From IMG/VR virus record IMGVR_UViG_3300046005_002099, positions 1 to 48,004 of that record: DNA of 48,004 nt; one strand, 5' to 3'. The DNA is from a virus. Within the stretch, counting starts at the first letter, position 1; each line of letters opens with the position of its first letter. Below the pieces are notes generated by a model. It had not been told where the DNA came from. It was given only the letters and a program-made list of their open reading frames with translations, and searched no databases. Shown one piece after another: positions 1,387 through 29,968 of the stretch. The translations under genes were made by a program, and so were the position numbers.

Positions 1387-2430
1387 TTACCCCACCAAAT
1401 TTGCGTTGGATTGCATTACCACGCTATTCACATCAAACGTATTACCGTGATTGCAAAAATCGACAAATTGCCGTGATAACTGGCTCACCGCATAAGAAAT
1501 CTCCGCCCATTCGTTAATCAGCTCGACAGGCACATTGCCGCTTTCGTCTGCCAGATACAACGCGCCTTTAATATCGTGAATGGCTTCAACAATTTTGCTG
1601 ATGCTATCTTGGTGCTGCTTAATGACCCCATTTTCGTGATTCAATAAATCGCGGGATTGTTTCAAATCCGCTTCCTGTTTTTGCAAACTCTCGATGCGAT
1701 ATTCCAGCTGGTCAATTTCAATTTTTTTCGCGTTCAAGTCTTTGGTCACGCCGTCTTTGATGGCTTTTGCCTGCTCTTTTTTGAGCTTTTCAAGTGCGTC
1801 TTGAGCATCCAGTGCTTTGCGTTCGGCTTGCTGAATGGCGTTGGAATTTTCGAGAATTAAATTCGCCCGCTCGGTTGCCAATTGTTCGCTTACACCCGCC
1901 GTAATTTGCGCGGCAATGGAATTACGCAAATCATCACTTTGTTGCTTGACGGCGTTCAGCGTTATTTGCTTGAAGTCGAGTTTTTTAGTCGTTTCAATCA
2001 GGCTGATTTGCAAGGTGTCATTTTTTAATTTCCATTCATTTGCCACATCTTCAACATACTTCGCGCCGATTTTTTTGCCTTCGGCTAAAGCACGAGCGAT
2101 GGCTTCTTGCCAAACTTCAGGCTTCGCTTCATCGGGAATTGACGTTAATGGGCGAAGTTGCGATTCGGGAATTTGCAATCCGCCAATTGGCGGAAGGAAA
2201 CTTTCAATTCGTGCAGCAGTCGCTAATCTGTCCAATTGGCTGAGGCTGTAATTCCACTCCTTTTCGCCATACTCTGCCCAACTTGAGAAACCCAATGCCC
2301 GCCACCCTTTGCGGTCACGCATTTCCAGTAACATCGAGCGCATCACGCTTTCGAGCGATTTAAGTTCAGTGTGTTTTGTTCTGGCTTCTTCTGGTGTCAT
2401 ATCTGGCAAAAACTGTATGTCATGGCTCAT
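1387..2430 (-). CDS. Coiled-coil phage protein, possibly ParB/KfrA-like, function unknown
   Basis: 347 residues. The N-terminal third (about 1-120) is helical, contains GFSSWAEYGEKEW and resembles phage or plasmid proteins with a ParB-type HTH core. Residues about 140-290 are a long charged coiled coil rich in Lys, Glu, Gln and Ala. AGGAG 7 bases upstream supports the start and overlaps the stop of the preceding gene. It contains one of the three copies of the 16-bp palindrome (read as PPIGG near residue 80). A DNA-binding or replication accessory role is plausible from its position, but I do not recognise a specific family. Confidence 0.65.
   Translation of the reverse strand: MSHDIQFLPDMTPEEARTKHTELKSLESVMRSMLLEMRDRKGWRALGFSSWAEYGEKEWNYSLSQLDRLATAARIESFLPPIGGLQIPESQLRPLTSIPDEAKPEVWQEAIARALAEGKKIGAKYVEDVANEWKLKNDTLQISLIETTKKLDFKQITLNAVKQQSDDLRNSIAAQITAGVSEQLATERANLILENSNAIQQAERKALDAQDALEKLKKEQAKAIKDGVTKDLNAKKIEIDQLEYRIESLQKQEADLKQSRDLLNHENGVIKQHQDSISKIVEAIHDIKGALYLADESGNVPVELINEWAEISYAVSQLSRQFVDFCNHGNTFDVNSVVMQSNANLVG
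2179..2194. repeat. 16-bp perfect palindrome TCCGCCAATTGGCGGA, copy 1 of 3
   Basis: A perfect palindrome inside the coding sequence at 1387-2430, flanked by CAA and AA so that 20 bases (2176-2195) are identical in all three copies. Read on the gene's minus strand it encodes Pro-Pro-Ile-Gly-Gly. Copies 2 and 3 are at 24587-24602 and 29710-29725. Confidence 0.9.
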
Positions 2431-2884: not shown

Positions 2885-3892
2885 TTAGGCTTGTTTGATT
2901 TCGTCTTGGCGATTGCCAACCAGCTCTTTCAAATCCGCTTTTACTTTTGGTGGCATTTCGTTGAGTAACGCCGCAATGTCACCGACGGTTTGACAGTTTT
3001 CAATTTTTACAATCCATGTGGCGTAAGGGTCTGGCGGCGTAGCATCAACAAATTCGAGTTCGACTGGCGGAGCAGATTCGGGTTGGTAATAAGTGGGTTC
3101 TGGATTGTCGCCAATCAAATCCTCAACGCTACGTGACTTTACGGCGGGTTTTTCAAACCACTCGTCTGCGGTACTCATGCCATCTCGAATGCTGGCGTAA
3201 ATTTTTCGCAAATTAGCCACCTGCGCGGGTTGCACTGCATCCATCCTGCGTTGGATTCGCAGTTCAATTTGTTCTTTGCTCACACCAAAGGCTTCAAAGG
3301 CTTCAACCAAACGCTTGATGGCTTCATGCGTGACATCAGCGGTGGTGACCAATGTTCGCTCACACTGTGCTACCGCTGCCTCGGTTACGTCGCTGGGGAT
3401 AATTGCCAAGATGCAGCCGCGTAATCGCCGTGCGCCTTGATTTGCCACCATCTCGTAAATGTCACGCGGGTCGGTGAGTTTTTTAACGCCTTTTCGCGTG
3501 TGCAGCTCATGGGCAACATGAAACGTCACTTCACGGCGGGTGTTGGTTTCAACGTCCCAAGCAAACGCCTGTACCGTGCTTTCGCCACTGCGTTGTTCAA
3601 GTTCTCGAATGCCAAATTGGATGTTGCCCCACTGTTGAGCAATCGCTTCAGCGAGCCTTATTGACGCGCCCGACACATTTGCACCGCCTCTGGCGAATTG
3701 GTAGACCGCGCTTTCGGCGAGTGATTGCCGTGTGCAGGCGTTTAAAATTCTGTCCATCGCCCCGCGTTGATTACGCGGATTCATACTGGCAATCATCATC
3801 GCCGCTTGGACTTCCGCAACGGCACGATTTTGGTCTGTCTGCGCCATCGGACTTAAATTCGATGCGGTAGTTGGGAATTGATTTAAGCTCAT
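2885..3892 (-). CDS. Candidate single-strand annealing protein (RecT-position partner of the nuclease)
   Basis: 335 residues. The N-terminal 200 residues form the conserved-looking core: MNPRNQRGAMDRILNACTR, then ARGGANVSGASIRLAEAIAQ, then NQGARRLRGCILAIIP. The C-terminal third is variable and acidic, with a low-complexity linker about 245-280. It lies directly downstream of an RecE-like nuclease with 10 bases between them, the usual layout for a nuclease/annealing-protein recombination pair, and it has a typical size for such proteins. AAGGAG before the ATG supports the start. It is not an obvious RecT, Erf, Sak or Rad52 from sequence alone, so the role is an inference from context. Confidence 0.55.
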   Translation of the reverse strand: MSLNQFPTTASNLSPMAQTDQNRAVAEVQAAMMIASMNPRNQRGAMDRILNACTRQSLAESAVYQFARGGANVSGASIRLAEAIAQQWGNIQFGIRELEQRSGESTVQAFAWDVETNTRREVTFHVAHELHTRKGVKKLTDPRDIYEMVANQGARRLRGCILAIIPSDVTEAAVAQCERTLVTTADVTHEAIKRLVEAFEAFGVSKEQIELRIQRRMDAVQPAQVANLRKIYASIRDGMSTADEWFEKPAVKSRSVEDLIGDNPEPTYYQPESAPPVELEFVDATPPDPYATWIVKIENCQTVGDIAALLNEMPPKVKADLKELVGNRQDEIKQA

Positions 3893-3902: not shown

Positions 3903-4706
3903 TTAGTTTGTTTGTGAAAACGCCCATGTGGGCAATGGTTTTAAGGTTTCGATGTTGTTGGAATAACCTGCGTACTCGCCCGTTTTCAAACAGCGGCGGT
4001 AAATCGCCAATGCCCGTTGATACTCGCGCCGTCCGCGTTCAATGTCCTCGTCGCAAAGTTCATAAATGCCGACCAAATACGGTGCGGTTTTTTCGACCGC
4101 GATAAAAATGAAGCTGTTCGCATCCATTCCCGCCGCATTAGCGCAATCCAAGTACCAAGCCGCCTGCATGGCGTATTGATATTTGGCGACCGCTTTGTGA
4201 AAACCGTCTGGGCTGGCATCTTCAGTCGTTTTCAAATCGGCGATAATGCCTTTGCGATACCAGTCCAGCTTTGCCTTTGCTCCAATGCCTTCAATTTCGG
4301 TGTAAATTTCGAGTTCAGCCATGCCGAATTTGAGAATCGTTGCCGCCGAGCCGTGGGTTCTGACCGCTTCCGACATCTTGCGGATTTGTTCAAACTCGTC
4401 ACTGCCTAAAATCACCCTTCCTTCGGCTTCTAACGCTGCCCATTCCTCTTTGCCCGCATTGGTTCGTTTGTTGATGCCGCTCGGTGCGACGGCGTAGTTT
4501 TTGGTGAATTCAACGGGTTCAAGCGTCAAGGTGTGAACCGCTGTACCGATTTGCATCGCTTTGGTTTCAATTCGCGGCGAAGTCTGCGCGTGTTTAAAAT
4601 GCGCGGGCGATTGCAGCAATAGCTTCATCCCTGAACAGTTCATTTCTGGGCGGTCGAAATAACCGACGGCGGTTGGGTTTGCTGCGAGTTTTTCTAATAC
4701 GTTCAT
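3903..4706 (-). CDS. RecE-like PD-(D/E)XK exonuclease (DUF3799 type)
   Basis: 267 residues. It should resect double-stranded DNA ends during phage recombination or replication. It begins with the family hallmark YFDRPEMNCSGMKLLLQSPAHFKHA. Next comes MQIGTAVHTLTLEP (the GTAxH motif), then the catalytic stretch AKLDWYRKGIIADLKTTEDA, whose Asp and Asp-x-Lys form the PD-(D/E)XK core, and finally YAMQAAWYLD. A longer ORF to 4907 exists, but GAAGG 9 bases before this ATG and a 4-base ATGA overlap with the small gene upstream favour this start. It is paired with the candidate annealing protein downstream. Confidence 0.85.
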   Translation of the reverse strand: MNVLEKLAANPTAVGYFDRPEMNCSGMKLLLQSPAHFKHAQTSPRIETKAMQIGTAVHTLTLEPVEFTKNYAVAPSGINKRTNAGKEEWAALEAEGRVILGSDEFEQIRKMSEAVRTHGSAATILKFGMAELEIYTEIEGIGAKAKLDWYRKGIIADLKTTEDASPDGFHKAVAKYQYAMQAAWYLDCANAAGMDANSFIFIAVEKTAPYLVGIYELCDEDIERGRREYQRALAIYRRCLKTGEYAGYSNNIETLKPLPTWAFSQTN

Positions 4707-4843
4707 TTGTTTGCCTTCATTGCAAAAGTGATTTTTCTTTTTAGCTGCTGGTGCTTCGACCACGCTATCTGATTGCTGTGTAGCCCTGAAAAGTAGGCGA
4801 TGGCAGCTAACTCTAAAAAAATGATAAATGTCATGATGACCAT
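4703..4843 (-). CDS. Small single-pass membrane protein, translationally coupled to the nuclease
   Basis: 46 residues, starting MVIMTFIIFLELAAIAYF and continuing into a basic tail. One strongly hydrophobic N-terminal helix (about residues 1-20) precedes a Lys/Arg-rich C-terminus. TAGGAA lies about 8 bases before the ATG. Its stop overlaps the nuclease start as ATGA, which argues that the frame is translated. It could be a superinfection-exclusion or host-modifying peptide; no family recognised. Confidence 0.5.
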   Translation of the reverse strand: MVIMTFIIFLELAAIAYFSGLHSNQIAWSKHQQLKRKITFAMKANK

Positions 4844-4924
4844 GTCGATTCCTAAAAAATGCGCGGCGGTTAAACCGCGCCAAGTGTGGCGTTGCCGCCG
4901 AGGACACCCCTTTAGGAGTTGTGT

Positions 4925-5084: not shown

Positions 5085-5372
5085 TCAATCGTGCCGTTCA
5101 TATCGGTTAATCCTCCCGCTCAAAAATGAGCGCACCAAATCCGAATCTAGTCGGCGTGTTAATTTCAACTGCGCGGCGTGTTTGTTAAACCATGCGTCAA
5201 TCTCCTTTTCTGGGTACGTTAAAACCGCTCGTTTCATGCCCTCCACCCGTTGCACGTTGCTGGCGGGGAAGTCGGGGAATTGTGCGATGTAGTGATACAC
5301 ACTGGATTCGTGTGTGTTGTGCCGATGGGCGATTTGCATCCGCGACAAATAGCCGCTGTTGATTTCTGCCAT
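5085..5372 (-). CDS. Small HTH protein (AlpA-like)
   Basis: 95 residues. Residues 8-65 read as a helix-turn-helix plus wing: SRMQIAHRHNTHESSVYHYI, then a segment ending LTYPEKEIDAWFNKHA, the usual layout of AlpA/excisionase-type regulators. AGGAGGG 7 bases upstream supports the start and overlaps the stop of the preceding replication gene. Role unknown; an early regulator or DNA-bending protein is plausible. Confidence 0.6.
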   Translation of the reverse strand: MAEINSGYLSRMQIAHRHNTHESSVYHYIAQFPDFPASNVQRVEGMKRAVLTYPEKEIDAWFNKHAAQLKLTRRLDSDLVRSFLSGRINRYERHD

Positions 5373-5860: not shown

Positions 5861-6464
5861 TATTGCCTCCTGTGTTAGGTGTATTTTTGTACGTTTCAAA
5901 TTGCTTTCTCATGCCTCCCTTTGGTGAGCAATACGCGCTCAAAAAATCTTCTTCTGAATTCGTACATTTCACCCAGTAAGAATCCGTACATGCCCACTCG
6001 AAAACTTCACGGTGTAATGCGTTCAGTTTTGTTCCCAAATTTTCAAAATTTTCGGTTTGCGTAGTAGTAGTTCTTTTAGGTTCTATTACTGGTTTAATAA
6101 TTACTGGTTCGGGTGCAAATACTGCACTACCCCTTAGTGCATCTGTTGCACTACCTAGTGCATTTAATGAACTAAGTGGTTCAATTTCTGCACTACCCCC
6201 ACTAAAATTTAATTCATACTGATTTGGTAGATTTACATCGCCGATTCTTTTACGAATTACCTGAAGATGTGCTTTGCTTTCCAGAGACTTTATTGCGGAA
6301 AGTAAGGTGTTTTTACTCATCCCACATTCTTCGGAAAGTCTGCTATGCGATGGATTGCATTGCCTCGTGTGGCTGTTGCAATAATTAGCTAGCATCAACA
6401 AAACTAACTTTTCTTTTGCAGGTAACTTTTGACCAATTGCCCATGTCATTGCTTGAAAACTCAT
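5730..6464 (-). CDS. Lambda-O-like replication initiator (HTH_36 type)
   Basis: 244 residues. Residues about 1-80 are a winged helix of the phage O/HTH_36 type: MTWAIGQKLPAKEKLVLLML, then CNPSHSRLSEECGMSKNTLL. The middle is Ser/Thr/Pro-rich and low in complexity (about 95-135). The phage origin often lies inside such a segment; the plus-strand sequence at 6120-6200 holds several GTGCA-type short repeats that could serve as iterons. The start has GAGGTG upstream and overlaps the previous gene by 4 bases (ATGA). Together with the P-like gene it forms a lambdoid replication module. Confidence 0.7.
   Translation of the reverse strand: MSFQAMTWAIGQKLPAKEKLVLLMLANYCNSHTRQCNPSHSRLSEECGMSKNTLLSAIKSLESKAHLQVIRKRIGDVNLPNQYELNFSGGSAEIEPLSSLNALGSATDALRGSAVFAPEPVIIKPVIEPKRTTTTQTENFENLGTKLNALHREVFEWACTDSYWVKCTNSEEDFLSAYCSPKGGMRKQFETYKNTPNTGGNNGTHRQPPKKLSPAERVRKAAGIGEFAVGAGGSESDYLEHNRD
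6120..6200. other. Possible phage replication origin (short iterated GTGCA/TGCACTA motifs)
   Basis: Inside the linker of the O-like gene the plus strand repeats ACTGCACTACC, GTGCATCTG, TTGCACTACC, AGTGCATTT and CTGCACTACC at close spacing. Lambda-type origins are iteron arrays in this position of gene O. The repeats also encode a low-complexity Ser/Ala linker, so they could be coincidental. Confidence 0.4.
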
Positions 6465-6661
6465 TCTTCACCTCTCGCCGCGTCAATCAGCCGATTTCGC
6501 AATTCGCGTCCTTTAACACCGCTCCATTTACCAACCAACGCTTTGTGAGCATTGCGTCTATCAATACCGTTACGAATACAAAAAATATTCATTGTTGTTC
6601 CTTGCAGCACAAAGCCAGCCCGTACAATCTTTAAATCACTGTGTATTTTGATTGGTTGCAT
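6461..6661 (-). CDS. Small DNA-binding protein at the Cro position
   Basis: 66 residues. TTMNIFCIRNGIDRRNAHKA reads as a helix-turn-helix: a helix, a Gly-Ile turn, then a recognition helix ending in KALVGKW. It is the first gene of the minus-strand early operon and is transcribed divergently from the CI-type repressor, which is Cro's position. It overlaps the O-like gene by 4 bases. The Cro role is inferred from position; an early regulator of another kind is possible. Confidence 0.6.
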   Translation of the reverse strand: MQPIKIHSDLKIVRAGFVLQGTTMNIFCIRNGIDRRNAHKALVGKWSGVKGRELRNRLIDAARGEE

Positions 6662-6676
6662 CTTTTGCCTATTGTG

Positions 6677-6720
6677 TTATGTTTAAGATGTTACGCAATC
6701 CGCGTAATATGTGAACATAA
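6677..6720. promoter_or_regulatory. Divergent operator between the Cro-like gene and the CI repressor
   Basis: A perfect inverted repeat TTACGC-AATCC-GCGTAA (6691-6707) lies inside an outer inverted repeat TTATGTT (6677-6683) / AACATAA (6714-6720) with nearly the same centre. Symmetric 17-bp sites of this sort are typical CI-family operators. The divergent early and repressor promoters should overlap here. No -10/-35 pair stands out clearly. Confidence 0.6.
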
Positions 6721-6761
6721 TAGTTCTCAAAACGCGAAAAGTAAAGCAGGAGATGCTCAAA

Positions 6762-7178
6762 ATGAGTAAAAAAAGTGCAAACGCAGTTATAGACAGAATG
6801 CAAGACGCATTACGCTTGAGTTCTGATAGCCAGCTGTGTAGAGAGTTAAAGATAAGTCGTTCGACATTAGGAACGTGGAGACAAAGAGATTCTGTGCCTT
6901 ATGCACTTTGCGTAAATATCGCAGAGGAAAAAAATATATCCTTAGACTGGCTATTGACGGGCGTGGGTTCAATGTTAAAAACAAAAATGGAGTTAAATAA
7001 TGGAACGAATTTTGATGATGAGGATGTTCGCATTTTGAATATGATTAAAAGATTGCCAGAGCCGCAAAAAAACAAGGAGGTCGCGGATATCGAAGCTTTT
7101 TTACGATCCTTTGACGAAGCTATTTCACATTGGGTAGCGAATAATCAGAACAGCCAAGCTAAACGGCAGGCAGCATGA
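6762..7178 (+). CDS. CI-type phage repressor (short form)
   Basis: 138 residues from the ATG that has CAGGAGA 8 bases upstream; a longer reading from 6711 would run into the operator. Residues 5-70 match the phage CI-repressor HTH domain: AVIDRMQDALRLSSDSQLCR, then LKISRSTLGTWRQRDSVPYA, ending in EKNISLDWLLTGVGSM. The rest is short and acidic and lacks the S24 LexA-type peptidase domain, so RecA-stimulated self-cleavage is unlikely. Induction probably relies on an antirepressor or another route. Confidence 0.85.
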   Translation: MSKKSANAVIDRMQDALRLSSDSQLCRELKISRSTLGTWRQRDSVPYALCVNIAEEKNISLDWLLTGVGSMLKTKMELNNGTNFDDEDVRILNMIKRLPEPQKNKEVADIEAFLRSFDEAISHWVANNQNSQAKRQAA

Positions 7179-7293: not shown

Positions 7294-10200
7294 ATGAACA
7301 CAATAAATAATAATTCAACTACCAAATCAGGCATTCGTGATAATCATGACTTTGGAAAAGTCGGTGATTTCTTAAAAGAAAAAATACAACCCAATGCACA
7401 GCTACGTTTTGTATCAGCCTATTTTAGTATTTTTGGATTTGAAGCCCTAAAAGCAGAATTATTACCGATTGATAAGCTGCAATTTCTATTCGGTGAACCG
7501 ACTTTTGTTAAGCAACTAGACGTAGCACAATCTCAGGCGAAAGCATTTCATATTGTAGAACAAGATTTATGGCTCAATAATCGTCTTAATCAAAAAGCAA
7601 TTGCTAAAACGTGTGCGGATTGGATAACAGAAAAGGTCGAAATTCGCTCGCTGATTCAAACAAATTTGCTCCACGGCAAGCTCTACCATATCAACAATAA
7701 CGGTGTTGAATCGGCACTACTTGGTAGCTCAAATTTTACGTTGCACGGTTTGGGCGAAGGAAATTCAAACATCGAGTTGAATTTAGTTGTGGATAGCGAC
7801 CGCGACAGACAGGATTTAAAACGTTGGTTTGATGGCATTTGGAACAACAAAACGTTGGTAAAAGACGTTAAACAAGAGGTTTTAAATTATTTAACCCAGC
7901 TTTATTACAATCACTCACCACAGTTTATTTATTACAAAACGCTTTACCATGTTTTTTACGAAGACTGGCAACGCTATCAAGAGCAACGTGAAGCCACTGA
8001 AAAAAGTTTAAATAAATCGGAAATTTGGAATACCTTGTTTGATTTTCAAAAAGAAGGTGTCACGCACGCGATTACTAAAATTCAAGCCCATAACGGTTGT
8101 ATTTTGGCAGACAGCGTGGGGCTTGGTAAAACCTACGAAGCTCTGGCGGTCATCAAGTATTTCGAGGCAAAACATCACAATGTTTTGGTTTTATGTCCCA
8201 AGAAACTCAGCGAAAACTGGTTACTTTATTCATCACTTTATAAACGCCAATTAAATCCATTAAAAGCAGACAAATTAAATTACACCGTATTAAGCCACAC
8301 GGATTTAAGCCGTGAAAAAGGGATGTCAAACAATGTCGATTTGAGCGATTTTGATTGGAGTCAGTTTGATTTAATTGTGATTGATGAATCGCATAATTTT
8401 CGCAACGATAATAAAAGCAAAAATGGTAAATCACGTTACCAACGGTTGCTTGAAGATGTGATTCAAGCGGGTGAAAAAACGAAAGTTTTATTGTTATCCG
8501 CAACGCCTGTAAATAACGATTTGTCGGATTTGTATAATCAAATTCGTTTCATTAGTGCCGACGATACTCATGCGTTTGCTGACATTGGGATTGTCGATAC
8601 AAAGAAAACACTGCGAGCCGCGCAAAATGCCTTCCATGATGCGGTTAAAAACAAGCGTCAATCGCAACTAGCCCACCATTTAAACGCGGATTTTTTCAAA
8701 TTACTGGACGCGATTACGATTGCCCGTTCACGCAAACACATTGAACGTCACTATCCCAATGTGGCAAAAGAACTGGGTGGCTTTCCTAAACGCACCGCGC
8801 CACAATCGATTTATTACGACATGGACACGCTCGGCGTATTTCCGTCATTTGTCGGCATAGAAAAAGAAATTTCGGCTTATCAATTGTCATTATTCAATCC
8901 GACGAAATACCTGCTCAACGAATACCGTGATTTACCTGAATATCAAAGCAAAGTAAAAAACTTCACTCAAGAAAACCGAGAGCATTATTTAATCGGTATG
9001 ATGAAGGTGAATTTTTTAAAACGCCTTGAAAGTTCCGTTGTGTCATTTGCGGACACGATGGCTCGAACGGTTATTAAGATTGAGGATTTGATTAAAAAAA
9101 TACAGCGATTTGAAGACATCGAAAGTTTGACCGAAAACGACCTTAATGAAGATGACGATTTGAATGATGCACTGGCGGTGGGTAAAAAAATTAAATTCAA
9201 GTTAAAACATTTAAAGCGTGCCGAATGGCTACAGGATTTAGAAAGCGATAAACAACAACTCTCGAAATTGCGTGATGTAGCACAAAACGTAACCGCTCAA
9301 CGTGACGGTAAATTACACGAATTAAAACGGTTGATTACCCATAAAATCACCAATCCAACCATCGATAAGCAAGGCAAATCAATCAAAAAAGTGCTGATTT
9401 TTACCGCGTTTTCTGACACCGCCCAGTATTTGTACAATGCCTTGAAATCCGATTTAACAGAGTTAGGCGTTCATTCTGGTTTAGTGACAGGTTCAAAATG
9501 TGAAGCCACTTTAGGCATGACAAATTTTAATGACGTGTTAATCAATTTTTCGCCCACCGCTAAAAAACGCAGTGGTTTTAAAAATACGCTCACGGACGAA
9601 ATTGACATTTTAATTGCGACAGATTGTATTTCGGAAGGGCAAAATTTGCAGGATTGCGATTGGGTGATTAACTACGATATTCATTGGAATCCCGTGCGAT
9701 TGATTCAACGTTTCGGACGGATTGACCGAATTAATAGCCAAAACAAAGACGTTTCGATGATTAACTTCTGGGCAACGGCTGAACTCGACCAGTATTTGAA
9801 TTTGAAAAATCGGGTTGAAGCACGAATGGCATTAGTCGATATTTCTGCCACGGGTTCGGATAACTTATTGCTCACTGAAGACGATGCCAACGATGAATTA
9901 AATTATCGTGACGAACAGCTAAAACGCATGAAAGATGAAGTGCTGGATTTAGAAGAACTCAATGATGGCGCGACATTAACCGATTTTAATTTTGATGATT
10001 TTCGTGCTGATTTAGGTGGCTATTTGGATTTAGAACGCGATAAATTAGCCAACGCGCCACTCGGTCTTTATGGCATCGTGCCAGAGCAACCCGATGTGAA
10101 TATCTACAAAGGCGTTATTTTTTGTCTGCAACAAAAGGTTTATCAGCAAGAAAAGGGGCAGCAAGTAAATCCGCTTACGCCGTTTTTTCTGATTTATATT

Positions 10201-10515
10201 CAAGACGATGGCAAAGTTAGGCGCAACTTTGTTGAAGCTAAACACACACTCGAAGTTTTCAAAATGTTGTGCATCGGTAAAGACCAACCTTATGAAGCCT
10301 TGTGCCAATTATTTGATGACCAAACGGGAGATGGTAGTGATATGGCGCATTATTATGACTTGGTGGCAAAATCGGTCGATGCAATTAGCGAAGCCTTCCA
10401 AGAAAAAGAAATTATAAAGTTAGCAACAGGACGTGGCGCGTTATTGCCAATCGTTTCAGAACAAATCACAAATCCAACCGATTTTACGTTGGTAACATGG
10501 CTCGTAATTAGTTAA
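7294..10515 (+). CDS. PLD-nuclease / SNF2-family helicase, defence system helicase
   Basis: 1073 residues; the translocase component of a four-gene defence-like operon. The N-terminal 190 residues form a phospholipase-D-type domain with one HKD-like motif: H127-x-K129 in LLHGKLYH, followed by GSSNF at 144-148. One motif per chain suggests dimerisation. A superfamily-2 helicase core follows: Walker A GLGKT at 276-280, DESH at 364-367, SATP at 402-405, and motif VI QRFGRIDR at 805-812. A helical charged insertion spans about 560-700. The family links PLD-helicases to foreign-DNA processing. The weak ribosome-binding site and A+T-rich composition suggest recent transfer as cargo. Confidence 0.85.
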   Translation: MNTINNNSTTKSGIRDNHDFGKVGDFLKEKIQPNAQLRFVSAYFSIFGFEALKAELLPIDKLQFLFGEPTFVKQLDVAQSQAKAFHIVEQDLWLNNRLNQKAIAKTCADWITEKVEIRSLIQTNLLHGKLYHINNNGVESALLGSSNFTLHGLGEGNSNIELNLVVDSDRDRQDLKRWFDGIWNNKTLVKDVKQEVLNYLTQLYYNHSPQFIYYKTLYHVFYEDWQRYQEQREATEKSLNKSEIWNTLFDFQKEGVTHAITKIQAHNGCILADSVGLGKTYEALAVIKYFEAKHHNVLVLCPKKLSENWLLYSSLYKRQLNPLKADKLNYTVLSHTDLSREKGMSNNVDLSDFDWSQFDLIVIDESHNFRNDNKSKNGKSRYQRLLEDVIQAGEKTKVLLLSATPVNNDLSDLYNQIRFISADDTHAFADIGIVDTKKTLRAAQNAFHDAVKNKRQSQLAHHLNADFFKLLDAITIARSRKHIERHYPNVAKELGGFPKRTAPQSIYYDMDTLGVFPSFVGIEKEISAYQLSLFNPTKYLLNEYRDLPEYQSKVKNFTQENREHYLIGMMKVNFLKRLESSVVSFADTMARTVIKIEDLIKKIQRFEDIESLTENDLNEDDDLNDALAVGKKIKFKLKHLKRAEWLQDLESDKQQLSKLRDVAQNVTAQRDGKLHELKRLITHKITNPTIDKQGKSIKKVLIFTAFSDTAQYLYNALKSDLTELGVHSGLVTGSKCEATLGMTNFNDVLINFSPTAKKRSGFKNTLTDEIDILIATDCISEGQNLQDCDWVINYDIHWNPVRLIQRFGRIDRINSQNKDVSMINFWATAELDQYLNLKNRVEARMALVDISATGSDNLLLTEDDANDELNYRDEQLKRMKDEVLDLEELNDGATLTDFNFDDFRADLGGYLDLERDKLANAPLGLYGIVPEQPDVNIYKGVIFCLQQKVYQQEKGQQVNPLTPFFLIYIQDDGKVRRNFVEAKHTLEVFKMLCIGKDQPYEALCQLFDDQTGDGSDMAHYYDLVAKSVDAISEAFQEKEIIKLATGRGALLPIVSEQITNPTDFTLVTWLVIS

Positions 10516-10531
10516 TAAAAAGGATTTAGTA

Positions 10532-13500
10532 ATGACTGACAAAAACAAACTTCAAACGCTCATCAACCAATTTTCTGGTGGTGATTTAAGAACGAATGCC
10601 CTCGCATTATTCAAAGAACTGGGCTATCAAAGTCCGCGTACTTTTGACAAACCCGTTGCTGAAATTTTGCGCGGCTTCGACCATGAAAAAGCGTTGTGTT
10701 CTGAGTGGATTAACGCGCCATTTTTGTTTCAATTAGCCGAAGATAATTTAAGTCATGTACAGTCATTACTCACGGATGTTGACGGAACTATTATCCACTC
10801 ATATTTATTTGTAGCTATCGAGTTAAAGAATAAGCATGGCAAGGATTACTCCCGTTCTGATTTAGTCAAGATTACTCGAGAACTCAATAAAAGCCCATTA
10901 AATGGACAATCACCACCTGTTTTAATTTTATTCAAACATAATGGAAATCTTACGTTATCAGTTATTCATCGCCGCTTGAATAAAAAAGATAGGGATAAAG
11001 ATGTTTTAGAAAAAGTTACCTTACTTAAAGATATTCATATCAACAAACCTCACTCTGCTCATGTAGCTATTTTGGAAGAGTTAGCATTTGATAATTTGAA
11101 TTTGAAAGCCGATGCCAATTTTGTTGATTTACACAACGCTTGGCAAGCCATTTTAGATACCAAAATGCTTAACAAACAGTTCTATAAAGAATTGTCGCAA
11201 TGGTATTTCTGGGCAATAGATGAAGTTTATTTTCCTGATGCCGAACAAATCGAGTCAGTAAAGGGAAGCGTTTTTGCAGATTCAAAAAAAGTCCGAGAAC
11301 ATAACGCAAAAAATCTTATTCGACTGCTAACCCGTTTGTTATTCGTTTGGTTTATCAAAGAAAAAAATCTAATTCCAGAAAATTTATTTAATGAAGACTG
11401 GATTAAATCGCAATTAAACGATTTCAAACCTCAAATCAGTGACACAGTTAAAGCGAATACAAGTCATTATTACCGCGCTATTTTGCAAAATTTGTTTTTT
11501 GCATCACTTAATCGGGTAGTTAAAGAAAGAAAATTTTGTTCTCCCAATAATCAAAAAGATACAACTTTAATGCACTACCAATCGTATTTTAACGATTCGG
11601 AAGTGTTTTTAGATTTAGTTAAAAACATTGTTCCGTTTATGAATGGTGGCTTGTTTGATTGCTTGGATAAGTACGTTCTTGATGCTGAAGGAAATCCATG
11701 CGGTGATGCAATTGTTTGTGAAGACAGTTTTTCAGATGACAGTAATAATCAGCTCGACGTTCCAGACTATATTTTCTTTGGTTCATATAAAAACGTCGAT
11801 TTAAGTGATGATCTTGGTGCAAAAAACAAAGCTGTTGAGGTTAGAGGCTTAATCGATATTTTAAAAAGCTACAAATTTACCATTACCGAAAACACACCCG
11901 TTGAAGAAGATATTGCACTCGACCCAGAGTTGCTTGGACAAGTATTTGAAAATTTACTTGCCAGTTACACACCTGAAACCAAAACCACAGCGCGTAAGCA
12001 AACAGGTAGCTTTTATACGCCCCGCGAAATTGTCGATTACATGGTGGATGAATCGTTAAAGGCTTATTTCAAATCAAAACTGGAAAGTTTGAATGCTAGT
12101 AATTTACTTGGCGACCATGATTTAGTTGGAATTTCACGCAAAACTGATTTATTTGAAAGATTAGAGGATTTGTTTAGTTATACAAAGGCTACGCCTGAAT
12201 TTTCAGCAACTGAAAAAACTACCTTAATTAAAGCGATTGATACTTGCCAAATCCTTGACCCTGCTTGTGGTTCGGGAGCATTTCCAATGGGTGTTTTACA
12301 CAAATTGGTTTTTGTTCTGACAAAAATCGACCCACACAACATTTTATGGAAAAAACGGCAAATCGACCGTGTTCAAGATTTCAAATTACAAAAGCGTATT
12401 ATTGAAACTTTCACCGACAATGAAGTCAATTATTCTCGAAAACTTTATCTTATTGAAAATTGTATTTATGGCGTTGATATTCAACCAATTGCTATTCAAA
12501 TTAGCAAACTTCGGTTTTTCATTTCGTTGATTGTTGACCAACGAATTGATAGAGATAAACCAGATAAAAATTTCGGTGTCTTACCACTTCCAAATTTAGA
12601 AACAAAATTCGTTGCCGCAAATACACTAATCGGTATTGAAAATTCCAAATCACAAATTGATTTGTTTCATAACAAAGACGTTGAAATTTTAAAGAAAGAC
12701 TTAAAAGAAATTAGACATAAACTGTTCAGTGCGAGAAATCCAAGTAAAAAACAAAAGTATCGAGATGAGGACAAAGAATTACGGAAAGAAATTGTCACCT
12801 TGCTAGAGCAACACGGCGGCGAAAATAACACGGTACAACAACTGTTGAGTTGGAATTCTTACGACCAAAATGCAAGTGCAAGTTTTTTTGATGTTGAGTG
12901 GATGTTTGGTGAAAGTGGTTTCGATATTGTCATCGGAAACCCGCCTTACATAAAAGAATACACCAATAAAGCTGCTTTTGATGGTTTAAGAGATTCACCT
13001 TATTACCAAGGAAAAATGGATTTATGGTATTTGTTCGTTTGCAAAAATCTTGAAATTACCAAAAAGAACACTGGCATTTTGACTTTTATTGCAACCAATA
13101 ACTGGACGACAAATACGGGTGCTTCCAAAATGAGAAGTAAAGTTTTGAAAGAAACCACGATTGAAAAACTGTTAGATTTTGGTAGTTACATGATTTTTGA
13201 AAGTGCTGACATTCAAACGTCCGTGATGATGTTTAGAAATGACAACAGTAACGACAATTACACTTTCGATTTTAGACGTTTAGTCGGTGATAAATTAACG
13301 TTTAATGATGCACTGGATTTGATAACAAAAACCAAATCACCTAAAAATGAATTCTTATCTGCCAAAATTTCAAAAAATGATTTAGATGGTAAATCACTCA
13401 CTTTCAGCAATAACGCGCTTGATAATGTTTTGTCCAAAATTCAAAAGAAAAGCAATCTTCATCTAACAAAGAATGAAGTAGCAAACGGAATTCACCCGCA

Positions 13501-14455
13501 TTACGACTACGTTAGCAAAGCTACACAAAGCGTATTAGGAGATAATTTTGAGGTTGGTCAGGGAATTTTTGTTTTAAGTGAAAAAGAAAGAGTAGATTTA
13601 AATTTAAATGGGAAAGAACTTGAGTTGATAAAACCATATTTTACAACTGAGCAATTGCGTAAATGGTGTGGCAAAAAAGAAAACAAAGAATGGATAATTT
13701 ACACGGGTTCAACATTTAAAGATGCGGCGAATATCGAACCTTATCCGAATATCAAAAAACATCTCGACCAATTTCAAAGCGTAATTACGTCAGACAATAA
13801 ACCTTATGGATTGCACAGAGCGCGTAATGAGTATTTTTTTCAAGGTGAAAAAATTATTGCGTTGAGAAAGTGTGTTGGTGAGCCGATTTTTACTTACACG
13901 GATTTTGATTGTTATGTGTCAGCGACTTTTTATGTCATCAAATCAGAACGAATTGATTTGAAGTATTTAACGGCAGTTTTGAATTCTAAACTCGTGGCGT
14001 TTTGGCTCAAAAACAAAGGCAAAATGCAGGGGCAGAATTATCAACTCGACAAAGAACCGCTGTTAGATATTCCCGTGTATAAATCGGACGAAAATCAACA
14101 ACAATTGGTAAGCCGATTGGTTGATTATATTTTGTTTATCAAGCAACAGCCTTTTTATACCTCAGCAGATTTAGATTTTGCCGAAGAACGTTTGATGTCG
14201 AATTTCTTTGAAAATTTAATTGATGCGCTGGTTTATGAGTTGTATTTCCCAGAGGAATTACACGAAGCCAAAAAACAGTTTATGAGTTTGGTTGTTCAAG
14301 AGAATTTGCCTGATTTAGATGTCATTGAAGGCGATAAGGTTAGCGCGTTGAAACAAATTGTTCGACGCTTAACTGACAAAAACCATCCGCTTTATAACAA
14401 TCTGTTTTTCTTAGATAGCGTGCCTGTGGTCAGAATTATTGAAGGTAAAGCGTGA
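10532..14455 (+). CDS. Eco57I-like adenine-N6 DNA methyltransferase, defence system methylase
   Basis: 1307 residues. The N-terminal 200 residues form a nuclease-like or accessory domain seen in large methylases of this class (LFVAIELKNKHGKDYSRSDL, later DVLEKVTLLKDI). I see no convincing complete PD-(D/E)XK set there. The methylase core has motif I DPACGSGAF at 576-584 and motif IV NPPY at 803-806, so it should make N6-methyladenine. The C-terminal part has a TaqI-like target-recognition region (LNSKLVAFWLKNKG, then QNYQLDKEPLLDIPV). AAGGAT precedes the ATG, 16 bases after the helicase stop. It most likely marks self DNA for the operon. Confidence 0.85.
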   Translation: MTDKNKLQTLINQFSGGDLRTNALALFKELGYQSPRTFDKPVAEILRGFDHEKALCSEWINAPFLFQLAEDNLSHVQSLLTDVDGTIIHSYLFVAIELKNKHGKDYSRSDLVKITRELNKSPLNGQSPPVLILFKHNGNLTLSVIHRRLNKKDRDKDVLEKVTLLKDIHINKPHSAHVAILEELAFDNLNLKADANFVDLHNAWQAILDTKMLNKQFYKELSQWYFWAIDEVYFPDAEQIESVKGSVFADSKKVREHNAKNLIRLLTRLLFVWFIKEKNLIPENLFNEDWIKSQLNDFKPQISDTVKANTSHYYRAILQNLFFASLNRVVKERKFCSPNNQKDTTLMHYQSYFNDSEVFLDLVKNIVPFMNGGLFDCLDKYVLDAEGNPCGDAIVCEDSFSDDSNNQLDVPDYIFFGSYKNVDLSDDLGAKNKAVEVRGLIDILKSYKFTITENTPVEEDIALDPELLGQVFENLLASYTPETKTTARKQTGSFYTPREIVDYMVDESLKAYFKSKLESLNASNLLGDHDLVGISRKTDLFERLEDLFSYTKATPEFSATEKTTLIKAIDTCQILDPACGSGAFPMGVLHKLVFVLTKIDPHNILWKKRQIDRVQDFKLQKRIIETFTDNEVNYSRKLYLIENCIYGVDIQPIAIQISKLRFFISLIVDQRIDRDKPDKNFGVLPLPNLETKFVAANTLIGIENSKSQIDLFHNKDVEILKKDLKEIRHKLFSARNPSKKQKYRDEDKELRKEIVTLLEQHGGENNTVQQLLSWNSYDQNASASFFDVEWMFGESGFDIVIGNPPYIKEYTNKAAFDGLRDSPYYQGKMDLWYLFVCKNLEITKKNTGILTFIATNNWTTNTGASKMRSKVLKETTIEKLLDFGSYMIFESADIQTSVMMFRNDNSNDNYTFDFRRLVGDKLTFNDALDLITKTKSPKNEFLSAKISKNDLDGKSLTFSNNALDNVLSKIQKKSNLHLTKNEVANGIHPHYDYVSKATQSVLGDNFEVGQGIFVLSEKERVDLNLNGKELELIKPYFTTEQLRKWCGKKENKEWIIYTGSTFKDAANIEPYPNIKKHLDQFQSVITSDNKPYGLHRARNEYFFQGEKIIALRKCVGEPIFTYTDFDCYVSATFYVIKSERIDLKYLTAVLNSKLVAFWLKNKGKMQGQNYQLDKEPLLDIPVYKSDENQQQLVSRLVDYILFIKQQPFYTSADLDFAEERLMSNFFENLIDALVYELYFPEELHEAKKQFMSLVVQENLPDLDVIEGDKVSALKQIVRRLTDKNHPLYNNLFFLDSVPVVRIIEGKA

Positions 14456-15819
14456 TGCGAATTAAAAAAATTGAAATCCAAAATTTCAGAGCGTTTTACG
14501 GTAATTTTGAAATTGAACTCGGTGGTAAAAATCTGCTGCTTTATGGTGAAAATGGCAGTGGTAAATCGTCGCTGTTTTACGCGCTGAAACTGTTTTTAGA
14601 ATCGGCGAATGCCAAAACTGAATTTTCAGAACATCGGAACATTTTTGTTAAAGATGATGACGATGGTTTCGTTAAATTAACCATTGGCAAAAATGCTTAT
14701 GAATGGTTGCCAGCGAAATTTCCAGACGCGCCGATTATATTGGATGCCAATAAAACCAAAGGCTTTTTAGATTATAAAAGTTTGTTGGAAACACATTTTT
14801 TACACCGCAAGCAAGAAGAAAAAAGCGTTAATTTGTTTCATTTGTTAGTTGAAAATTTGCTCGTTGATTATACGGAATCCAGTTCGGGCAGAACGATTGG
14901 TGAAATTTGGCAAAGTGTACAGAAAAAATCAAAAGCCAAAAAGAACACAAATACTTACAAAAAAGAATATCCAGAAGAACTGCATTTCATGAATGACGTA
15001 CTTCAAAAAGCATTGGCTAATTTGACGGATAAAACCAATGAGTTACTGGCTTTCTTTGATTATCAAATCATTTGTAATTTCACATTTAGCGTTGTGATGC
15101 AGATATTGTGGCTCGATATAAAGTTTTTTAATCGTTCAATTCCAACCCACCATGATTTTTTAAATGAAGCGCGATTATCGGCAATTGCATTATCAATTTA
15201 TTTTGCGTCATTGTTAGAACAACCAAAAAGTGATTTACGAATTTTAGCGTTAGACGATGTTTTAATTGGCTTGGATATGGCAAATCGTTTGCCTGTGATT
15301 GATATTTTGGAACAACATTTTTCTGAGCATCAAATTTTCTTTATCACGCATGACAAACTGTGGTTTGACATGATGAAAATGCGAACAGAAGCCAACAAAG
15401 CATGGAAATGGAAGTACGCCGAGTTTTATTGCCCGAATGATGTGAAATCGCCTATTTTGCCGATTGATTATGAAAATGATTTAGAGCGAGCAAACAAATA
15501 CTTGTTGAATGGTGATTATAAAGCGGCGGCGGTTTATGCGCGGACAGCTTTTGAAATTACGTTAAAGAATTTTTGTGACAAGAAAAAATTAAGTGTTCGA
15601 TATTGCAAAGATGCGAAAAAATTACAAAGTGAAGATTTTTGGCAAGCGGTGAAAGCATTTGGACTCGACCCAGAACTGGTGAGTAATGTTGAACTTTATC
15701 GGGCTGTAGTGCTTAATCCATTAAGCCATTCACGCATCGTTGATATTACAAAAAATGAAGTCGGTAAGGCTATCGCGGTAATTGAACAATTGGAAATGGC
15801 TTTGGAAGGTTTGAAATAA
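14455..15819 (+). CDS. RecF/ABC-type ATPase with HEPN-like C-terminal domain, defence system ATPase
   Basis: 454 residues from the ATG that overlaps the methylase stop (TGATG), with GAAGGT upstream; a GTG three bases earlier is possible. Walker A GENGSGKSS is at 31-39, a signature-like ARLSAIALSI near 240, Walker B LALDD ending at 268, and the H-loop His at 300 in FFITHDKLW. The ATPase halves are joined by only a short coiled segment (about 150-210), so this is not a long SMC. Residues about 345-450 are helical with R416 and H425 (RAVVLNPLSHSR), resembling HEPN or DUF4145-type tails of defence ATPases. It may sense or signal infection. Confidence 0.8.
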   Translation: MRIKKIEIQNFRAFYGNFEIELGGKNLLLYGENGSGKSSLFYALKLFLESANAKTEFSEHRNIFVKDDDDGFVKLTIGKNAYEWLPAKFPDAPIILDANKTKGFLDYKSLLETHFLHRKQEEKSVNLFHLLVENLLVDYTESSSGRTIGEIWQSVQKKSKAKKNTNTYKKEYPEELHFMNDVLQKALANLTDKTNELLAFFDYQIICNFTFSVVMQILWLDIKFFNRSIPTHHDFLNEARLSAIALSIYFASLLEQPKSDLRILALDDVLIGLDMANRLPVIDILEQHFSEHQIFFITHDKLWFDMMKMRTEANKAWKWKYAEFYCPNDVKSPILPIDYENDLERANKYLLNGDYKAAAVYARTAFEITLKNFCDKKKLSVRYCKDAKKLQSEDFWQAVKAFGLDPELVSNVELYRAVVLNPLSHSRIVDITKNEVGKAIAVIEQLEMALEGLK

Positions 15820-17075
15820 TGTCTAAAAATGAAAATATCTTTTGTAACCTCACTTCAAAACGCATCGCAGAATTGATAAGCGAGGCAGAAACAACTGTTT
15901 GCTACTCTGCGCCAAGCATCCAACTTGAACCCGCACAGGCTCTCGTAGAAGCATCAAAAAAACTCGGCGTTGAAATGCTAACTGTATCGATTGATTTTGA
16001 CGAACGAACATTGCGTTTGGGATATGGAAGTTTGGAGGCAATCAATTTACTTCGTGAAGCGGGGATGATTGTTAATCATGCCGAGGGAATACGCCAAGCC
16101 CTGCTAATTGTTGATGATGACGGTTATAGCTACACGCCAACTCCGTTGTATTTAGAAGCTGAAAATACAACGGCAATTAACGCATTGCGATTATCACCAG
16201 AACAAACAAAAGAAGCTCTCACTAGATTATCGCCAGCCGCTAAAGCCATTGCAGTCGCTCAAGCTACCACGATTGAAGAAAAAGAGCGTATATCAAATTT
16301 ACCCGTCGAAATCACTTCAATCGAAGTGGATGTTGAAAGATTCAAGCGTGTTGATGAAAGTTTAAAGCTAGCACCTCCTGTAAAGTTTGATATTGCCAGA
16401 CAGGTTCGAGTATTTGAATCTTATTTTCAGTATGTTGAACTTAGCCTAACTGGTGTTGCAATACAGCGGCATAAACTGGCAATACCAATAAGCATTCAAA
16501 AATTAGGTGCTGGCAAAGACTTAGAGGGAAGATTAAAGACTACTTTCGATTTAATTGAAAAAAATGACGCATTATCCTCAAAAATATTGGAGGGGGAGTT
16601 TAACGAAATTCGTGATAATTTTGCAAAGTCTCTGGGTAAAAATCATGGACGGGTTTTATCGAAAGCCGCAAAACCACTTTTTGAAAAACGTATTGAAGAA
16701 TTTCAAATAAAGCTGAAGAACCATCAGACAAAAGTAGAAGAAGAACTTCAAATGTTGCTTAATAATTCACGAAAGCAAGTAATTGATTATTACAAACCAA
16801 CGGTTATGAAAAACCCTCCCGATTCTCTGAGAGGACAATTACTTTCAGAAGCACTTTCGGAAGAAGATGTTGAATGTTGGCTAGATAGCGAGTTGGAGCG
16901 GGTTTTCCCAAAATCAGAATCTATTATCAAAGAAATGAAAATTGAAAAACGTTACAAAGACGTTACTTTTGAAACGCTAAATCAGTCCGATTTTTTAATT
17001 GCAATAAAAGAAAAATTTCCAAAAATGGAATGGGATAAAACTTATCGTGATTTTATAGCAGCAGGTGAAAAATAA
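15819..17075 (+). CDS. Unrecognised fourth defence-operon protein with degenerate PLD-like N-terminus
   Basis: 418 residues. The start overlaps the ATPase stop (TAATG) and has GGAAGG upstream, so it is translated as part of the operon. Residues about 1-115 follow the strand-helix pattern of a PLD half-domain (SEAETTVCYSAPSIQLEPAQ, then EAINLLREAGMIVNHAEGIR, ALLIVDDDG). The His-x-Lys of the active site is replaced by Gly-Ile-Arg-Gln, so catalysis is unlikely. Residues about 120-290 are helical with few features. Residues 290-345 are a charged coiled coil. I do not recognise the full-length family. It could be a target-recognition, adaptor or regulatory subunit for the helicase and methylase. 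Confidence 0.7.
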   Translation: MSKNENIFCNLTSKRIAELISEAETTVCYSAPSIQLEPAQALVEASKKLGVEMLTVSIDFDERTLRLGYGSLEAINLLREAGMIVNHAEGIRQALLIVDDDGYSYTPTPLYLEAENTTAINALRLSPEQTKEALTRLSPAAKAIAVAQATTIEEKERISNLPVEITSIEVDVERFKRVDESLKLAPPVKFDIARQVRVFESYFQYVELSLTGVAIQRHKLAIPISIQKLGAGKDLEGRLKTTFDLIEKNDALSSKILEGEFNEIRDNFAKSLGKNHGRVLSKAAKPLFEKRIEEFQIKLKNHQTKVEEELQMLLNNSRKQVIDYYKPTVMKNPPDSLRGQLLSEALSEEDVECWLDSELERVFPKSESIIKEMKIEKRYKDVTFETLNQSDFLIAIKEKFPKMEWDKTYRDFIAAGEK

Positions 17076-17992: not shown

Positions 17993-18345
17993 GCCAATTA
18001 TCCGCGCATTTTAATCGTGCTGAATTCACCTGCCATTGTGGCTGTGGCGCGTCTAACATCAACATGGCGTTGGTCGAATTACTCGAGCAGATACGAGTTG
18101 CTGTTGATGAACCGATTCATGTTTTAAGCGGTGTTCGCTGTGAACACCATAATCACCACGTTGGTGGCGCACGCCACAGCCAGCACGTTTTAGGTAATGC
18201 GGCAGATATTTTTGTTGATGGATTGACACCGAAATTGCTACATAAATTTATCGAACAAAAATTCGATGTTGGCGGCATGGGACTTTATCCAACATTTGTT
18301 CACGTTGATGTGAGAAAAGAAAAAGCACGCTGGACGGGCAAATGA
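17989..18345 (+). CDS. Endolysin, peptidase M15A type
   Basis: 118 residues. It should cleave peptide bonds in peptidoglycan. Zinc-ligand motifs of the M15A family are visible: SGVRCEHHNHHVGGARHSQH, then HVLGNAADIFV (H-x-x-G-x-A-x-D) and FVHVDVR near the C-terminus. The N-terminus has a Cys pair and no signal peptide, so it depends on the adjacent holin. Overlaps of 4 bases with both neighbours. No spanin pair is visible nearby. Confidence 0.9.
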   Translation: MSQLSAHFNRAEFTCHCGCGASNINMALVELLEQIRVAVDEPIHVLSGVRCEHHNHHVGGARHSQHVLGNAADIFVDGLTPKLLHKFIEQKFDVGGMGLYPTFVHVDVRKEKARWTGK

Positions 18346-19628
18346 ACAAATTTGACGCACAAATTATTCGGGTTGCTATCGAAAGTGTGATTCCTTACGC
18401 CAACAACACCAAAAAACACCCGCCAGCTCAGATTGATAAATTAGCATCAATGATTGCGGAATACGGTCACGACGTGCCGATTGTGGTGGATGCTGACAAC
18501 GTGGTCATTAAAGGTCACGGACGGTTGCTTGCCTGTAAAAAACTGGGTATGGAAACCATCCCCGTCATCGTTCGCACCGACCTCACACCTGCACAAGCCA
18601 AAGCCGCTCGCATCGCCGACAATAAAGTCAGCGAATCTGAATGGGACATGGATTTACTGCGTCTTGAATTGACGGAACTCGACGAATTAGGTTTCGACCT
18701 AGATTTGACAGGCTTTGATGATTTCGATTTGACGATTGATGACGAATCTACAATTGACGACGATGCCGACCTTGATGCCGTGCCAGAACCACCACTCGTA
18801 CCGATTACGAAACTGGGCGACGTTTGGTTGTGTGGCAATCATCGGGTGATGTGCGGCGACAGCACCAGCATTGATGCGGTGGACACGCTAATGGGTGGCG
18901 ATAAAGCTGACATGGTTTTTACTGACCCACCGTACAACGTAAAAATCGTGGGGCTTGGAAGCGGCACGTCAAAAGCGGGCATCGGCAAAATTCACGGTGA
19001 ATTCAAAATGGCTTCGGGAGAAATGACCAAAGACGAATTCACTGACTTTTTACGCGCTGCGTTCACTTGCTTGATTGCATCATCAAAAGACGGCTCAATT
19101 CACTACATCTGCATGGATTGGCGGCACATTCAAGAACTCACTGCCGCTGGCGAAATTTACACCGAACTCAAAAATCTCTGCGTTTGGAATAAAAACAACG
19201 GCGGCATGGGAACGTTTTACCGCAGCAAACACGAGCTGATTTTTGCCTATAAAAACGGCACAGAAACCCACACCAACAACTTTCAACTGGGGCAAACGGG
19301 ACGCTATCGCACCAATGTTTGGGATTATCCAATGGCAACTCAAACGGGTGAAAACGCAGAATCCAAAATGCACCCCACCGTAAAACCCACGCAACTGGTG
19401 GTCGATGCCATTCTGGATTGTTCAAACAATGGCGAAACAATTTTAGATTTATTCGGAGGCAGCGGCACGACCATGATTGCCTGCGAAAAAACTAACCGTA
19501 TCGCTCGATTGATGGAACTCGACGAGAAATACTGCGACGTGATTGTTCGCCGCTGGCAGGAATTAACGGGCAAAGAAGCCAATTTGGAAAGCAACGGGGC
19601 GTTATTCAACGTGCTAGGCGATGGCTAA
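18342..19628 (+). CDS. ParB-domain / DNA N6-adenine methyltransferase fusion
   Basis: 428 residues. Residues 1-100 form a ParB/sulfiredoxin-like domain (HPPAQIDKLASMIAEYGH, then VIKGHGRLLACKKLGMETIP). An acidic linker of Asp repeats follows (about 115-150). The methylase has motif IV DPPY near 196 and motif I LDLFGGSGTTMIACEKT near 370, a beta-class order. DPPY favours adenine N6. Such fusions are common beside small terminases, where they may protect or mark DNA before packaging. No restriction partner is adjacent. Confidence 0.88.
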   Translation: MNKFDAQIIRVAIESVIPYANNTKKHPPAQIDKLASMIAEYGHDVPIVVDADNVVIKGHGRLLACKKLGMETIPVIVRTDLTPAQAKAARIADNKVSESEWDMDLLRLELTELDELGFDLDLTGFDDFDLTIDDESTIDDDADLDAVPEPPLVPITKLGDVWLCGNHRVMCGDSTSIDAVDTLMGGDKADMVFTDPPYNVKIVGLGSGTSKAGIGKIHGEFKMASGEMTKDEFTDFLRAAFTCLIASSKDGSIHYICMDWRHIQELTAAGEIYTELKNLCVWNKNNGGMGTFYRSKHELIFAYKNGTETHTNNFQLGQTGRYRTNVWDYPMATQTGENAESKMHPTVKPTQLVVDAILDCSNNGETILDLFGGSGTTMIACEKTNRIARLMELDEKYCDVIVRRWQELTGKEANLESNGALFNVLGDG

Positions 19629-23434: not shown

Positions 23435-23435
23435 A

Positions 23436-29533: not shown

Positions 29534-29968
29534 ATGAAAATCAGAAATCCTGCTTGCTGCACTTGCGGCAACATTTCACTTGAAAAACGCTTAGAAAAAT
29601 ACATTGAATGCCCTTACCACGACGGCGAAATAGAAGGTGAAGTGGTCGATTGGATTGAGGTCGATGACCCACCACACAACGAGATTGAGGCAACAATTAA
29701 AACAACCAATCCGCCAATTGGCGGAATTTACGAAAGTAACCACCCAAAATATGCAGGCTTCGTCATCAAAGAAGATGCGGGGTTTTGCTACCTTGGCGGC
29801 ATGGGTGATTGGATTGTCTATGCCACTCCATTCAACGAGGATGGCGAACCTTATTACATCAACGCCCAGCCCCAGCGTTTTATGATGGGACGCGACATTG
29901 GCGACTTTATCCCAGACGAAATCGAAGTGAGCGATGAGTGCTACCAAGCCTTTATGGCAAGCCAATAG
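29534..29968 (+). CDS. Array protein E, Cys-rich N-terminus
   Basis: 144 residues, AAAGGAAAGA upstream. The N-terminus has a possible zinc site: CCTCG at 8-12 and CPYH at 26-29. The middle holds copy 3 of the 16-bp palindrome (TNPPIGGI, residues about 58-65), followed by a beta-rich domain (GFCYLGGMGDWIVYATPF). No family recognised. It closes the array before a terminator. Confidence 0.55.
   Translation: MKIRNPACCTCGNISLEKRLEKYIECPYHDGEIEGEVVDWIEVDDPPHNEIEATIKTTNPPIGGIYESNHPKYAGFVIKEDAGFCYLGGMGDWIVYATPFNEDGEPYYINAQPQRFMMGRDIGDFIPDEIEVSDECYQAFMASQ
29710..29725. repeat. 16-bp perfect palindrome, copy 3 of 3
   Basis: Same 20-base block (29707-29726) as at 2176-2195 and 24584-24603. It encodes Pro-Pro-Ile-Gly-Gly between an acidic linker and a beta-rich domain in gene E. 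Confidence 0.9.

Follow-up and report, generated by a model that had tools for sequence, protein, structure and literature searches.

Short perfect palindromes read in frame in the protein linkers of a provirus and its relatives

Palindromes normally conflict with coding, and this locus raises the question of why one and the same perfect palindrome should be read in frame in three unrelated genes of a single phage. The window, that is, the whole stretch of DNA analyzed, comprises the 48,004 nucleotides of IMG/VR record IMGVR_UViG_3300046005_002099 (positions 1–48,004). A pattern search of the window located the 16-bp palindrome TCCGCCAATTGGCGGA at 2179–2194, 24587–24602, and 29710–29725, with 0 mismatches in each copy, and returned no further site when up to three mismatches were tolerated. 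Each copy is embedded in the same flanked 20-mer, CAATCCGCCAATTGGCGGAA (CAA followed by TCCGCCAATTGGCGGA and A), starting at 2176, 24584, and 29707, as the initial annotation had reported. All three 20-mers lie on the plus strand of the record, though one carrier gene runs in the opposite direction (one minus-strand and two plus-strand genes, listed below), and all three are coding, with a reading of LPPIGG or NPPIGG. The earlier description of a block that is always coding, always in the frame giving Pro-Pro-Ile-Gly-Gly, and carried by genes of either strand thus holds at every site, and no intergenic copy of the 20-mer was found in the window. Three exact 20-mers had also been judged beyond chance, in agreement with a dinucleotide model (4.7e-7 copies expected) and with shuffled sequences, 0 of 100 of which contained three matches to TCCGCCAATTGGCGGA. 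Chance or simple composition as the source of the 20-mers is ruled out by these two results together with the synonymous-codon null described below. A fourth coding palindrome had been overlooked at first reading; it is 22 bp long (TTTGGGAACAATTGTTCCCAAA) and lies about 65 bases past the second copy. The features referred to in the text are as follows.

1387–2430, minus strand: site 1 gene of the early region; helical N-terminal part, PPIGG loop, and long coiled coil
2176–2195, plus strand: 20-mer site 1, antisense to its gene; reads L-P-P-I-G-G-L
2885–3892, minus strand: gene adjoining the exonuclease gene (PHROG 3657); its own linker is without a palindromic word
3903–4907, minus strand: exonuclease VIII-like gene (phrog_412, E 4e-83)
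23433–24923, plus strand: Mu-type portal protein gene (PF06074, E 3.5e-63) with site A and the 22-bp word
24564–24686, plus strand: disordered linker of the portal, from the Portal_Mu domain to the C-terminal helices, with two palindromes
24584–24603, plus strand: 20-mer portal site A; N-P-P-I-G-G, residues 385–390, in the disordered segment 378–418
24668–24689, plus strand: second portal-linker word, the 22-bp perfect palindrome TTTGGGAACAATTGTTCCCAAA; F-L-G-T-I-V-P-K
29534–29968, plus strand: small gene with site 3; function not assigned
29707–29726, plus strand: 20-mer site 3; N-P-P-I-G-G, at a mosaic joint

The Portal_Mu match extends over portal residues 42–367, and the model of the portal has pLDDT values below 50 across residues 378–418, a segment that contains both words. 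In the product of 1387–2430, for which the model is poor, PPIGG falls in a low-confidence loop (72–98) with a helical N-terminal part before it and a coiled coil after it. Placement of the copies in linkers or domain junctions, as first proposed, is therefore borne out as a linker or loop at the portal and early-region sites, while the third site is a mosaic joint. Other genes of the window encode a Mu-type F protein, capsid E, an integrase beside tRNA-Thr, and a repressor (6711–7178), and methyltransferase genes are present at 10532–14455 and 18342–19628. The exonuclease VIII-like gene points to a phage recombination module. The window is a provirus, with word copies in both early-region and late phage genes; its phage gene set implies that the early-region gene with site 1 also belongs to the phage, and no copy in host DNA is shown here.

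Four genes at 7294–17075 of the window form a phage-borne block and encode an HKD and Snf2 helicase protein (PADLOC C3a139, E 3e-122), a type IIG restriction-methyltransferase-like protein, an AAA ATPase, and an unknown protein, and this block is probably a defence island. Ahead of the integrase gene, positions 1–130 comprise the terminal part of one tRNA together with an intact tRNA-Thr(CGT), a probable attachment site with some host DNA. An Rfam scan of the window returned tRNA only. Against 369 genomes of one class, the first 127 bases matched at tRNA-Thr only, without the neighboring tRNA, and the portal protein gave no match at E 1e-40. Plasmid and phage collections yielded no host for the window, and one further order was represented by only two genomes.

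Related phages, most of them metagenome fragments, were compared site by site. At site 1, three relatives carry three different perfect palindromes (read as PPIGG, GTIVP, and APIGA), aligned without gaps and centered on the same ATT codon. The orthologues in L232 and L323 have a 24-bp palindrome read as LGTIVPK, and those in L316 and L317 have an 18-bp palindrome read as VAPIGA. The 22-mer of the window's portal gene is found in identical form at site 1 of L323 and L232, and each site 1 word recurs in some portal linker, APIGA in G380 and G381 and both PPIGG and GTIVPK in the window's own portal. Related portal linkers contain one to four perfect or near-perfect coding palindromes (NPPIGG, HPPMGG, APIGA, APMGA, and TPMGV), and none of these peptides was found in more distant portals. 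The site 3 peptide of relatives is PPIGG, PPMGG, or CPVAG/CPIAG, the last two without a palindrome. The L317 orthologue of the 2885–3892 gene has an extra word, GTTGCCAATTGGCAAC, read as LPIGN, in its linker. G384, a member of the window clade, carries four different words in one genome; the unrelated second word of the window is GGGAACAATTGTTCCC. The phase is constant at all eight window-clade sites, where the axis always splits ATT or ATG. Words of this clade show no alternative GATC core, which may be explained by the avoidance of GATC documented below.

Palindromes at comparable places were also observed beyond these sites. Two 32-bp perfect palindromes lie in ORFs of L307 (3300031452_000036; 5130–5161 and 8359–8390), one of them on the APIGA word. 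A third phage family has AAATCCGCCAATTGGCGGATTT or AAATCCGCCCATGGGCGGATTT in the same linker place, read as DETNPPIGG or DETNPPMGG, when the L020 family (L052, L054, L063, and L074) is set against L267 and L287. In the ParB-like proteins of L008, L025, L031, L046, and L264, one and the same loop, preceding the helix-turn-helix, contains PPIGG/PPMGG palindromes, whereas this loop lacks the peptide in the related proteins of L004 and L070.

Under a null in which the protein was kept fixed and synonymous codons were redrawn, the window would be expected to contain 0.75 coding palindromes of at least 16 bp and contains 4, a number reached in 1 of 300 redraws. G384, G380, and G381 each have 5–6 such palindromes against 0.3–0.9 expected (0 of 100 redraws each), and several related fragments with one or no long palindrome exhibited no significant excess under the same null. 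Shorter palindromes behave in the opposite manner within the window, where 10- and 12-bp palindromes are depleted two- to sevenfold, GATC occurs 7 times against 184 expected, CCGG occurs 0 times against 127, and 6-bp palindromes overall reach 0.43 of expectation, such that the long palindromes are conspicuous in a sequence that otherwise avoids palindromes. At six homologous sites taken together, changed base pairs were two-sided and still paired in 13 cases and one-sided in 4, a tally made per sequence from small numbers of non-independent events. The change from ATT to ATG is mostly accompanied by the matching change of the upstream proline codon from CCA to CCC, and the codons at site 1 stay palindromic while the peptide changes. 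Different perfect palindromes at one site, together with mostly paired arm changes despite palindrome avoidance, suggest that the unit is kept at the DNA level, and what is retained appears from these alignments to be a DNA symmetry rather than a protein motif. The comparison of orthologues proposed with the initial annotation agrees with this reading, in that the block is not present in all of them. Protein conservation as the main cause is rejected because orthologues carry a different palindrome, or lack one, at the corresponding position.

Similar behavior was found in a second clade, P/Q (contigs of sample 3300011116 and relatives), in genes unrelated to those of the window; this clade was found through a search for the word and speaks to recurrence, not to frequency. 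The clade P word, TTAACTCCGCCAATTGGCGGAGTTAA or a somewhat shortened version of it, is present at three sites on two contigs taken as related phages, and the clade Q word is AATTCCGCCCATGGGCGGAATT. The same two paired changes separate P from Q at two homologous, unlinked sites, one directly after a stop codon and the other in the linker of a protein of ∼2200 residues. The clade Q unit is longer (∼42 bp, CCCCTACTTWAGTAKCAAATTCCGCCCATGGGCGGAATTAC); its hairpin is perfect, has a 4-base loop, and is preceded at a distance of two bases by GTAG or GTAT. The unit occurs in three unrelated contexts, including in frame in the ParB-like gene of L264. Among viral-contig stretches, 72 contained the 16-mer and 36 the second word, compared with 10 for a composition-matched scrambled palindrome, with relatives counted repeatedly. 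PPIGG is not what the 16-mer usually encodes: it accounts for 11 of the 59 clear cases among bacterial loci and for 22 of 40 among viral loci, the latter not being independent. Sampled genomes of the class of G001 (n = 369) contain 0–2 copies each, with 37 matches to the 16-mer compared with 23 to the reversed pattern; no enriched genome was found among the 369. In a Bacteroidales genome (L147), inverted copies of a 16-mer-containing unit lie ∼110 bp apart at 2557 and 2666, like a REP pair.

How words arrive at their sites was addressed by the alignments around them. No clean empty site was found among the orthologues, and at sites 1 and 3 one word takes the place of another in gapless alignment. 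The proposal of a mobile palindromic unit tolerated in linkers is thus retained as far as a DNA-level palindrome in linkers is concerned and loses its second element, insertion as a clean 18–21 bp unit. The close pair L194 and L197 displays a 12-base difference that, in our reading of the alignment, resembles loss of half a palindrome in L197 accompanied by two substitutions, and the L197 state is a probable half-palindrome deletion. At site 3, the window and L228, L229, and L230 are ∼30% identical upstream of the palindrome and 96 to 100% identical in the block that starts there. At site 1, the 60 upstream bases are 46 to 50% identical between the window and L323, and blocks from 30 bases downstream on are 83 to 100% identical.

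The explanation we prefer, which we put at about an even chance, is that these are hairpin words that linkers tolerate; templated repair from arm to arm would keep them perfect, and short-homology recombination would copy them from site to site. A hairpin would form in single-stranded intermediates of replication or repair, and template switching would carry a change from one arm over to its partner, allowing the word to drift and yet remain a perfect palindrome. Short-homology recombination, of the phage exonuclease/annealing module type, would copy words to other sites and exchange flanking domains. Survivors would be expected only in linkers and only in the phase that pairs wobble with wobble and gives the same peptide in either orientation, since drift and inversion are least harmful there, and no cargo or encoded function would be required. 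Homogenization of arms by template switching is documented, coding genes included (PMC8604942, PMC8794818), and its signature, pairing-preserving changes on both arms, was detected here, also as two pairs at two P/Q sites. As in those reports, the paired multi-base changes keep the arms complementary in coding genes; unlike the present case, in which a word is also found at unlinked sites, the documented process acts within one inverted repeat. As template switching alone cannot place one word in several genes, we infer the copying step, which the exonuclease VIII-like gene makes plausible. Identical 20-mers in three unrelated genes, interchangeable words at a site, paired changes, and the excess of long palindromes all speak for the hairpin-word explanation, as do the mosaic joint at site 3, the divergent patch ending at site 1, the exonuclease gene, and the similar second clade. 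The concerted P/Q change at two unlinked sites, one of them intergenic, counts against it, as a binding site would account for that change too. The over-representation of the 16-mer in viral contigs may likewise indicate selection on the word itself, and the several related fragments with no palindrome excess are a further point against.

The main rival holds that the words are putative binding sites, within coding linkers, of a dimeric trans-acting protein (repressor, partition, packaging, or nucleoid) with which the palindromes co-evolve, like stoperators or parS-like sites. The words have perfect dyad symmetry and dispersed copies, the excess in viral contigs over the scrambled palindrome is strong, and the best support comes from clade P/Q, where the word differs between phages but within any one phage is shared by two unlinked sites, one of which directly follows a stop codon. 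The presence of several words in one genome, four in G384 and an unrelated second in the window, is less easily reconciled with one binder, as is the lack of an intergenic copy in the window, and no match to the 16-mer at up to three mismatches was found near the repressor control region (6464–6711), where a repressor operator or stoperator would be expected. We regard this explanation as unlikely but deserving of serious consideration. The related suggestion of a methylation site did not hold up as well, given that the four different words in G384 make one fixed methylation site unlikely.

Two further explanations appear improbable. One is that a REP-like palindrome was mobilized in trans by a host TnpA-REP (Y1) enzyme. 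REPs, too, are small perfect palindromes, and one described REP combines a perfect palindrome and 4-base loop with a GTAG two bases away (PMC8266576); the clade Q unit, in its three unrelated contexts and with GTAG/GTAT ahead of a hairpin with a 4-base loop, is reminiscent of the Marinomonas group 3 REP (PMC8266576). However, GTAG is absent from the window's units, empty sites are lacking, and the words are mostly coding, whereas REPs are mostly intergenic (PMC8266576). No Y1_Tnp domain (PF01797) was detected in 14 phage records, while control genomes were positive. The second, about as doubtful, is that the palindromes are boundary sequences selected for in-frame domain exchange in either orientation, that is, recombination joints. 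Homology to L228, L229, and L230 starts at site 3, and site 1 marks the end of a divergent patch; boundary sequences, in which, as at site 3, a short shared sequence lies where homologous meets unrelated DNA, are already a known proposal (cited in PMC3029335). The present words differ in being perfect in-frame palindromes that also occupy non-joint sites, the portal sites have homology on both flanks, and the joints may simply be linkers that tolerate both breaks and words.

A conserved or convergent protein turn motif (P-x-I/M-G-x), whose palindromic DNA would be an accidental by-product of the complementarity between Pro and Gly codons, would account for the self-complementary peptides PPIGG, APIGA, and TPMGV and for the similar CPVAG or CPIAG in palindrome-free site 3 orthologues. 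It is nonetheless very improbable, since third codon positions are matched as well, I-to-M changes mostly come with the matching CCA-to-CCC change, the peptide at site 1 can be GTIVPK instead of PPIGG, a word that runs antisense to its gene has identical flanks, and the clade Q word is also found in intergenic DNA. Least credible is a hairpin in the translated RNA, acting either to slow ribosomes at the borders of domains or as a terminator, which would fit hairpin energies of −11 to −13.8 kcal/mol (below shuffles) and the T run after the 16-mer in other phages and bacteria but not the window words, which have no T run following on the sense strand, nor the sharing of exact letters between genes.

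Several described systems share features with these words. Rickettsia palindromic elements (RPE) are palindromic DNA in frame inside unrelated genes (PMC10969869), a feature also found here, but are ∼150 bp long, whereas window-clade words are 16–24 bp, replace one another without gaps, and have yielded no empty site. HIP1 and alternate HIPs are short palindromes in which one word is swapped for another between related genomes (PMC4390886); HIP1, in contrast, is an 8-mer of high genome-wide frequency tied to a methyltransferase, and the present words have few copies per phage and no enrichment in the sampled bacteria. Coding palindromes of Nematomorpha mitochondria are perfect inverted repeats inside coding genes (PMC6649704) but reach 284 bp, and interchangeable short linker words are not what is described there. 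As at least one defining feature each of RPE and REP was tested and not found, the words were not filed as members of either; they were filed among dispersed short palindromes in coding DNA, outside the RPE and REP families and, provisionally, the HIP family. No paper on this exact phenomenon was found in the open-access literature, which does not prove that none exists.

A tentative and more far-reaching possibility is that these are among the smallest self-spreading or co-evolving DNA words, palindromes of 16–26 bp that move in frame between phage protein linkers, with the words of a genome turning over together through a trans-acting factor or hairpin-templated copying. A phage group that in general avoids palindromes keeps those in its linkers perfect while their letters and peptide change. 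If the hairpin-templated mechanism is true, the words would constitute a natural record, open to counting, of templated mutation between arms and of short-homology copying in phages, and would supply new linker peptides in a simple way. If a binder is involved, they would represent a regulatory code hidden in coding sequence.
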